Shown here in pieces: positions 27,452-38,015 of a stretch of DNA of 40,420 bases (within the stretch, counting starts at the first letter, position 1; each line of letters opens with the position of its first letter). The notes beneath the pieces are model-generated. The model ran no database searches. It was not told the origin of the DNA and worked only from the letters and a program-made list of their open reading frames with translations. Position numbers and translations under genes: made by a program. The stretch lies in contig CANHDN010000007.1 in assembly GCA_947459415.1 (NCBI GenBank), positions 1-40,420 of the forward strand, in the 5' to 3' direction. The stretch comes from Bacteroidota bacterium. Its GTDB lineage: Bacteria > Bacteroidota > Bacteroidia > UKL13-3.

Positions 27452-27850
27452 TTAATACACGTAACACAATACTTCACCACCTACATTATGGTTACGGGCT
27501 TCTTTGTCTGTCATTACACCTTTAGAGGTAGTAACAATAGCAACACCCATTCCGTTGATAACGCGAGGCATATTTTCTACACCAGCATATCTACGTAAAC
27601 CAGGACGGCTAATTCTTTCTAAACTTTTAATTGCTGAAGTCTTTGTTACCGGATGGTATTTCAAAGCAATTTTAATTACACCTTGGTGGTTAACCACATC
27701 TTCGAACTTATAGTTCAAAATGTATCCTTTTTCAAAAAGAACACGTGTAATCTCCTTTTTTAATTTGGAGCTTGGGATTTCTACAATGCGATGATTTGCC
27801 TTGATCGCATTACGAAGCCTAGTTAAATAATCTGATATTGGATCTGTCAT
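27452..27850 (-). CDS. rpsH: 30S ribosomal protein S8 (uS8)
   Basis: 132 residues. MTDPISDYLTRLRNAIKANHRIVEIPSSKLKKEI at the start and the C-terminal VINGMGVAIVTTSKGVMTDKEARNHNVGGEVLCYVY are diagnostic; GVMTDKEAR is the conserved RNA-binding loop. S8 binds 16S helix 21 and, in E. coli, represses spc-operon translation through a site in the rplE leader. Here the 128 bases just upstream of rpsH are structured, which makes control at this point plausible. The gene has the longest upstream spacer in the block. Confidence 0.97.
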   Translation of the reverse strand: MTDPISDYLTRLRNAIKANHRIVEIPSSKLKKEITRVLFEKGYILNYKFEDVVNHQGVIKIALKYHPVTKTSAIKSLERISRPGLRRYAGVENMPRVINGMGVAIVTTSKGVMTDKEARNHNVGGEVLCYVY

Positions 27851-27868
27851 ATGTTGTTATTTTTACTC

Positions 27869-27960
27869 ATCAGTAGTTAGCCAAGGCTTGTACTCTTACT
27901 GATTGAGTTATTGTTTTATATAGTTAAAGGGCTGCGAATATACAATAACTCGCATCCCTT
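27869..27960 (-). promoter_or_regulatory. Structured spacer between rpsN and rpsH (candidate RNA element or operator)
   Basis: Three inverted repeats are seen in a 128-base spacer. Stem 1 pairs 27950-27960 with 27927-27937 (11 positions, one mismatch). Stem 2 pairs 27942-27951 with 27905-27914 (10 bp, perfect: GAGTTATTGT / ACAATAACTC). Stem 3 pairs 27897-27903 with 27869-27875 (7 bp). Stems 1 and 2 interlock and share two bases, giving a pseudoknot order or two exclusive hairpins. No T-run follows either stem, so it is not a simple terminator. The function is unknown; an autoregulatory leader for rpsH is one option. Confidence 0.5.
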
Positions 27961-27966
27961 ACCAAA
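27935..27966 (-). promoter_or_regulatory. Internal promoter candidate upstream of rpsH
   Basis: On the minus strand TTTG (27966-27963), a 20-base spacer, then TATATTCG (27942-27935). The -33 is exact and the -7 has one change (TTCG for TTTG), the same change as upstream of the gene at 14829. Start would be near 27928, leaving a ~78-base leader containing stems 2 and 3 in part. Confidence 0.4.
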
Positions 27967-27978
27967 TTTTTCTTTTAA

Positions 27979-28807: not shown

Positions 28808-28817
28808 ACAATTCTCC

Positions 28818-37263: not shown

Positions 37264-37674
37264 TTATTTCTTTTTTGCTTTAGGATCAACTGCTACTTGT
37301 CCTGGCTTTGGCTTTTTAGTACCATATTTAGAACGTCTTTGGTTACGTCCAGCTACACCAGCTGTATCTAATGCACCTCTCACAATGTGATAACGAACTC
37401 CAGGTAAATCTTTTACCCTTCCTCCTCTTACCAATACAATAGAGTGCTCTTGTAAATTGTGACCTTCTCCAGGGATGTAAGCATTAATCTCATTTCCGTT
37501 CGTTAAACGAACACGAGCAACCTTACGCATTGCCGAGTTTGGCTTCTTGGGTGTTGTCGTGTATACACGTGTACAAACACCTCTACGTTGAGGACAAGAA
37601 TCAAGAGCTGGTGATTTACTCTTGGTTGAAACGTCGTTGCGGCCCTTACGAACCAGTTGTTGAATAGTAGGCAT
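37264..37674 (-). CDS. rpsL: 30S ribosomal protein S12 (uS12)
   Basis: 136 residues. [43 protein letters not shown] and [16 protein letters not shown] are diagnostic. The TPKKPNS loop (Lys43/44) and the VKDLPG loop are wild type with regard to known streptomycin-resistance sites. S12 acts in the decoding centre. It is the first gene of the 32-gene block and is preceded by two promoter candidates. Confidence 0.98.
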
Positions 37675-37716
37675 ATCTTCTTGTTATACGCAATAATTGT
37701 CAAAAATTTGGGACGG

Positions 37717-37748
37717 CAAAAGTAGGTGATTGTAGTTAGCTATGCAAG
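37717..37748 (-). promoter_or_regulatory. Proximal promoter candidate (P2) of the ribosomal block
   Basis: On the minus strand CTTG (37748-37745), a 20-base spacer and TACTTTTG (37724-37717). The -7 is an exact match. Start would be near 37711, giving a ~37-base leader before rpsL. Confidence 0.6.
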
Positions 37749-37829
37749 TGCGCAACAAAAAATATTAAAAATATCCAATGCTGAGCGGGTTATTATGCTA
37801 ACAGTAACCATCAGTCTCTACCGTAAATT

Positions 37830-37877
37830 CCCCTTTAAGGGGCTGCAAACGTAGACTATATTTATTTATTATCCAAA
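37830..37877 (-). promoter_or_regulatory. Distal promoter candidate (P1) with a palindrome at the start site
   Basis: On the minus strand TTTG (37877-37874), a 20-base spacer and TACGTTTG (37853-37846): both elements match the Bacteroidota consensus exactly. Predicted start is near 37840, inside the palindrome CCCCTTTAAGGGG (37830-37842). The leader to rpsL would be about 165 bases. Confidence 0.62.
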
Positions 37878-37960
37878 CATTTATCAAAAATAGTTTTAAA
37901 ATACTTCTTTTTATTCGGTTCAAACCAAAACATAAAACACAGATTTACAGAAAAATAAAC

Positions 37961-37998
37961 AAAAAAAATGGCCTACAAATTTCTTTGCAGGCCATTTT
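37961..37998 (-). terminator. Terminator of the beta-helix T9SS gene
   Basis: On the minus strand AATGGCCTGCAAA (37996-37984) pairs with TTTGTAGGCCATT (37979-37967) with one G-T pair around a GAAA tetraloop (37983-37980), followed by a T-run. It ends 20 bases after the stop codon and protects the ribosomal promoters from read-through. Confidence 0.92.
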
Positions 37999-38015
37999 AA
38001 ATTAAACTTTAAATA

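Follow-up and report, generated by a model that had tools for sequence, protein, structure and literature searches.

A candidate autogenous S8 leader with a 16S helix 21-like core precedes rpsH in a Bacteroidota ribosomal block

The spacer in front of rpsH in the window (the whole stretch of DNA analyzed here, 40,420 nt of contig CANHDN010000007.1) probably represents an autogenous leader for ribosomal protein S8, which would combine an rRNA-mimicking hairpin with an own promoter and repress the translation of rpsH. Judged from the sequence, we assign this reading a probability of roughly 0.83. By analogy with known S8 control, S8 would most likely attach to the mRNA that encodes it and switch off its own synthesis. 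A previous sequence-only reading had suggested that the spacer could be an S8- or S14-responsive leader, or a pseudoknot or switch formed by interlocking stems. The S8-responsive leader is retained here, based on a covarying hairpin with a helix 21 (h21) core in front of rpsH, while the pseudoknot and the switch are given up.

The spacer between rpsN and rpsH comprises exactly 128 nt (27978-27851, minus strand), and the remaining spacers of the ribosomal block, as far as they can be read from the list of open reading frames, measure at most 61 nt, which agrees with the earlier remark that this spacer stands out. The three stems described in it were all found in the window sequence; stem 3 proved to covary in relatives, whereas stem 2 and its interlock with stem 1 found no support. 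As a whole, the spacer folds modestly better than its shuffled versions (z -2.1). For comparison, rpsH was found in 87 of 98 relatives and in 80 named GTDB loci, and the rpsN-rpsH spacers were cut out by script. In the majority of genera of the same family, this spacer is 120-150 nt long and contains two conserved parts, one upstream and one downstream. At the head of the block, a gap of 341 nt (window positions 37675-38015) was additionally noticed 5′ of an ORF (37264-37674) that is probably rpsL. The coordinates of all features are listed in Table 1.

Table 1. Features of the rpsN-rpsH region, given in window coordinates.
Feature	Position	Strand	Remark
rpsN	28248-27979	-	
-33 element TTTG, predicted rpsH promoter	27963..27966	-	consensus TTTG/TAnnTTTG (PMC6847099)
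Stem 1, inverted repeat AAGGGATGCGA...TCGCAGCCCTT across promoter	27927..27960	-	27960-27950 with 27937-27927, one mismatch
Stem 2, GAGTTATTGT/ACAATAACTC	27905..27951	-	27951-27942 with 27914-27905; complementarity peculiar to window sequence
-7 element TATATTCG	27935..27942	-	-7-type box; predicted transcription start ~27930
Whole leader hairpin, 44 nt	27865..27908	-	covariation in A1; single match of model R1, E 5.6e-15
Leader P1	27908-27905 with 27868-27865	-	alignment A1
Bulged A of leader hairpin	27904	-	between P1 and P2
Leader P2	27903-27898 with 27874-27869	-	followed by asymmetric internal loop
S8-like core, 5′ strand U594 A595 A596 G597 A598 G599 U600	27892..27898	-	E. coli 16S numbering by analogy
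S8-like core, 3′ strand G638 C639 U640 A641 A642 C643 U644 A645	27874..27881	-	
A-rich stretch, 14 nt, hairpin to rpsH AUG, putative ribosome landing zone	27851..27864	-	sequence AAAAATAACAACAT
rpsH, ribosomal protein S8, putative ligand	27452..27850	-	phmmer full-length match to uS8 of solved ribosomes, E 4.4e-58

Stem 3 (ATCAGTA/TACTGAT; 27903-27897 with 27875-27869) turned out to be the core of a covarying hairpin in the downstream part of the spacer. In alignment A1, consisting of 29 family sequences, 91.5% of the cells of this hairpin are paired, compared to at most 52% in slid versions. Double changes were counted in 46 cells (11.5 in shuffles) and at 7 of the 15 pairs, and the covariation score amounts to 0.353 vs. 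0.166 after shuffling. While the letters of the helices change, those of the internal loop (AAG.GU / CU.ACU) are invariant throughout A1. Compensatory changes in relatives, as found for stem 3 (P2), do not extend to stem 2, which is paired in 55.7% of the cells across 23 relatives vs. 56.7% in shuffled columns.

A model of this hairpin (R1) gave exactly one match in each of 46 out of 64 family genomes, 45 of these at E <= 4e-6 and one at 0.084. At all 30 fetched loci the S8 gene adjoins the match, with the hairpin located immediately 5′ of rpsH. Three genomes of the window's genus contain no match (G011, G014, and G016), and rpsH could not be detected in them either. Beyond the family, R1 did not match in a phylum sample of 392 genomes except in the window's own genome, and a search of the spacer against Rfam 15 yielded no family at gathering score, a lax threshold giving chance-level matches only. 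The R1 form is absent from the genera g3, g4, g12, and g14. The short spacers of g12, g3, and g4 (L046, L049, L053, L055, L056) carry core-like GAAAGU..AACUC hairpins in which position 641 seems to be missing; they were not counted as S8 core and may possibly be decayed or altered versions of it. The spacers of genus g14 (L042-L044, L047, L048) are also short; a small hairpin, GAUUAAACAUAGGUUCAAUC, is conserved in them, and the S8 core is absent.

The internal loop of the leader hairpin reproduces the primary S8 site of 16S rRNA in h21, which is characterized by the triples A595-(A596-U644) and (G597-C643)-U641 and by the invariant A642 (PMC4176348). A595, the 596-644 pair, G597-C643, a nucleotide at 641, and the invariant A642 are all present in the leader, the window reading U594 A595 A596 G597 A598 / U640 A641 A642 C643 U644 A645 at 27898-27894 / 27879-27874. 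Among the 29 family sequences, A595, A596, G597, G599, and U600 on the one strand and A642, C643, and U644 on the other are invariant. Position 641, a U in the E. coli S8 site, varies between A (17 distinct cores of the family) and U (9 distinct cores), whereas A642 is always A. The standard closing pair 598-640 is an A-U in 28 of the 29 sequences and is broken in L012. The h21 of the window genome's own 16S rRNA reads UAUAAGUCAG..UUGAAACUGUA (UAAGUC/GAAACUG), likewise with A at 641, so that A595, A596-U644, G597-C643, A641, and A642 of the leader equal those of the genome's own rRNA. In contrast to this core, 598-640 is A-U in the leader and U-A in the rRNA, the adjoining helices on both sides show no sequence relationship, and the apical loop of the leader is short. 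Since the core pairs hardly vary inside the family, their support comes from the identity with rRNA and from a second hairpin type (see below) and not from covariation within the family. In nearest-neighbor folding, the free window RNA prefers another pairing of the loop (-11.7 vs. -9.4 kcal/mol, a gap of 2.3 kcal/mol), with the 596-644 pair of the window hairpin at only 6%; such free-energy models give no score to base triples. Given this preferred pairing, S8 would need either to select the core or to induce it. Rearrangement upon binding has been described for an S8 aptamer (PMC4176348).

The second type of hairpin was found in front of rpsH in Sphingobacteriaceae (Pedobacter, Mucilaginibacter, and Olivibacter) and has the form GAUGG-n-AGGUC..GAAACC-A-CCAUC. 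In the corresponding alignment (A2), 95% of the cells are paired and 27 carry double changes, compared to 10.1 in shuffles. In rRNA numbering, this hairpin shows the same core geometry, with 596-644 as G-C, 598-640 as U-A, and 599-639 as C-G. Its model (R2) matched 18 of 396 genomes of the class, all of them belonging to family f40 (Sphingobacteriaceae according to the named loci) and none to any other family, and the two types are therefore treated as separate. The S8 gene lies next to the match at all fetched R1 and R2 loci, as expected of an element in S8-encoding mRNA. A descriptor of the core was found in 56 of 88 long spacers vs. 1.2 expected in shuffles, and in 49 vs. 0.32 with a stricter lower helix; as the descriptor was written after the sequences had been seen and the spacers are related, these counts are not to be read as probabilities, and the background consists of the window and shuffles only. 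It is quite unlikely that the leader responds to another ribosomal protein, namely S14, encoded before it, or L6, L18, or S5, encoded after it. In multi-gene operons, the protein that binds the leader is indeed frequently not the one encoded first downstream (PMC7247131), but the core of the 16S S8 site is found here in two hairpin types of differing sequence, both directly 5′ of rpsH, and both primary binding and autogenous repression are known for S8.

Further hairpins were observed in spacers of other families. Cytophagales-type spacers (L059, L108, L132, L136, L205-L207) contain a third one before rpsH, GGUUGCUGAGU..C-AGGUCG..CGAAACC-GG.., with an AGGUC/GAAACC core. It lies 5′ of a promoter-like site (TTTG-N19-TATCTTTG) and of a GC-rich hairpin followed by a T-run, an order of elements unlike that of the window's family; being upstream of the promoter-like site, it would occur in read-through RNA only. 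In L040, L045, L050, L052, L060, and L106, a conserved hairpin with S8-loop-like geometry, UAUAAUUAUCC..GGAUAACAUAUA, is located a few bases 5′ of rpsH. These hairpins have a C at the required A642 and were not counted as S8 core.

The upstream half of the spacer contains a predicted promoter of the Bacteroidota -33/-7 type, with the layout TTTG-N20-TATATTCG at 27966-27935, which corresponds to the consensus TTTG/TAnnTTTG of this phylum (PMC6847099). Among the 40 family spacers that bear the leader, 33 contain the pattern TTG-N17..23-TAnnTT[TC]G and all 40 contain a -7-type box, compared to 0.23 and 4.0, respectively, expected by shuffling; the relatives are non-independent in both counts. As the -7 box of Flavobacterium spans -12 to -5 relative to the start site (PMC9723704), the transcript of rpsH is predicted to start at approximately 27930. 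RNA made from this promoter would therefore lack the 5′ arms of both stem 1 and stem 2.

Both stems are present in the window, where the sequence-only reading had joined them to an interlocking H-type pseudoknot or, alternatively, to two mutually exclusive hairpins switching the expression of rpsH. We regard either version as highly improbable. The pairing of stem 2 is no better kept in relatives than in shuffled columns and is broken even in close ones such as L004, so that the interlock appears to be a peculiarity of the window sequence. Moreover, a pseudoknot would call for two conserved stems on the same transcript, and the conserved promoter covers both 5′ arms, which precede the predicted start; the same evidence speaks against the switch.

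Stem 1 itself was excluded from the leader since its 5′ arm precedes the predicted start. It is probably a terminator-like or insulating hairpin that would form as RNA in read-through transcripts only. In the window, the fold of the upstream half including stem 1 is far more stable than that of shuffled versions (z -4.1); most relatives show a z of about -2 or lower, with sequences that differ in some genera. On alignment A3, no covariation of stem 1 was found (85.7% of cells paired vs. 84.7% in shuffled columns). In genus g2 (L035, L038, L039, L041), a different, very stable hairpin (AGGCGCG..CGCGCCU) lies over the promoter, with z of about -6 in L035 and L041; these 5′ halves suggest that the upstream hairpin is retained while its own sequence turns over. 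In Mucilaginibacter and Pedobacter, it is A/T-rich and followed by a T-run. This terminator-like appearance of the promoter-overlapping hairpin would fit a structure without any protein ligand, i.e., a stabilizer of the mRNA, a processing site, or a transcription insulator between two operons. Such an explanation suits stem 1. It does not suit the hairpin further downstream, in which invariant loop letters within changing helices form the pattern expected of a protein site, and we consider it unlikely for the leader.

For the S8 leader, the following mechanism is proposed. rpsH and the later genes would be transcribed as a unit of their own that begins in the spacer, driven by the predicted housekeeping promoter. 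Its 5′ UTR, presumably on one transcript with rpsH, would fold into the hairpin at 27908-27865, with the asymmetric internal loop as the putative copy of the S8 site of 16S h21. Whenever S8 is in excess over 16S rRNA, it would occupy the hairpin, loading of the 30S subunit would be blocked, and rpsH would be repressed, probably along with the downstream genes via translational coupling. Binding, repression, and downstream coupling are proposed here by analogy with S8 of E. coli (PMC10931766). Bacteroidetes lack Shine-Dalgarno sites, and their mRNAs tend to stay free of pairing between nucleotides -20 and +20 (PMC6847099). With its end 14 nt from the AUG, the hairpin would reach the initiation region, and if clamped by S8 it would compete with the 30S subunit.

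S8 is an autogenous repressor in E. coli (PMC10931766). The spc operator of this organism, like the leader, mimics the 16S h21 core in an mRNA and is subject to autogenous control by S8, which in the case of the leader is a proposal (PMC4176348, PMC10931766). Both share the A-(A-U) triple, the G-C pair, and the equivalent of the invariant A642 (PMC4176348). In contrast, the E. coli operator is situated inside the operon at the initiation region of rplE, whereas the Bacteroidota leader precedes rpsH in what appears to be the 5′ UTR of a separate promoter, and the flanking structures of the two are unrelated. Because the element lies at rpsH and the rplX-rplE spacer of the window comprises only 10 nt (28808-28817), the leader was not classified as a homolog of the spc operator.

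Leaders predicted in Bacteroidia/Flavobacteria for S4, L13, S15, and S16 are likewise covarying structures in the 5′ UTRs of ribosomal protein genes of this phylum (PMC7247131). None of the 20 new leaders of Eckert and Weinberg (2020; PMC7247131) is located 5′ of rpsH, and S8 is not the likely ligand of any of them. According to a 2024 review, S8 control outside E. coli-like bacteria is unknown (PMC10931766). No S8 leader outside gamma-proteobacteria, Bacteroidota included, was found in the open-licence r-leader literature, although an earlier description is possible.

We consider it somewhat probable that Bacteroidota control S8 by rRNA-mimicking leaders before rpsH, with at least two types (perhaps three, including that of the Cytophagales) that have little in common apart from the S8 core, and with a promoter and terminator-like hairpin splitting the spc operon between rpsN and rpsH. 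If true, one protein site would have evolved repeatedly, and S8 feedback would be described for the first time outside gamma-proteobacteria. The leader thus provides a concrete, testable candidate for an S8 feedback site in another phylum, and as its named carriers include strains of Mucilaginibacter and Pedobacter, some of them cultured isolates, it is amenable to direct tests. The same protein site would then occupy another point of the operon and be embedded in differing hairpins.
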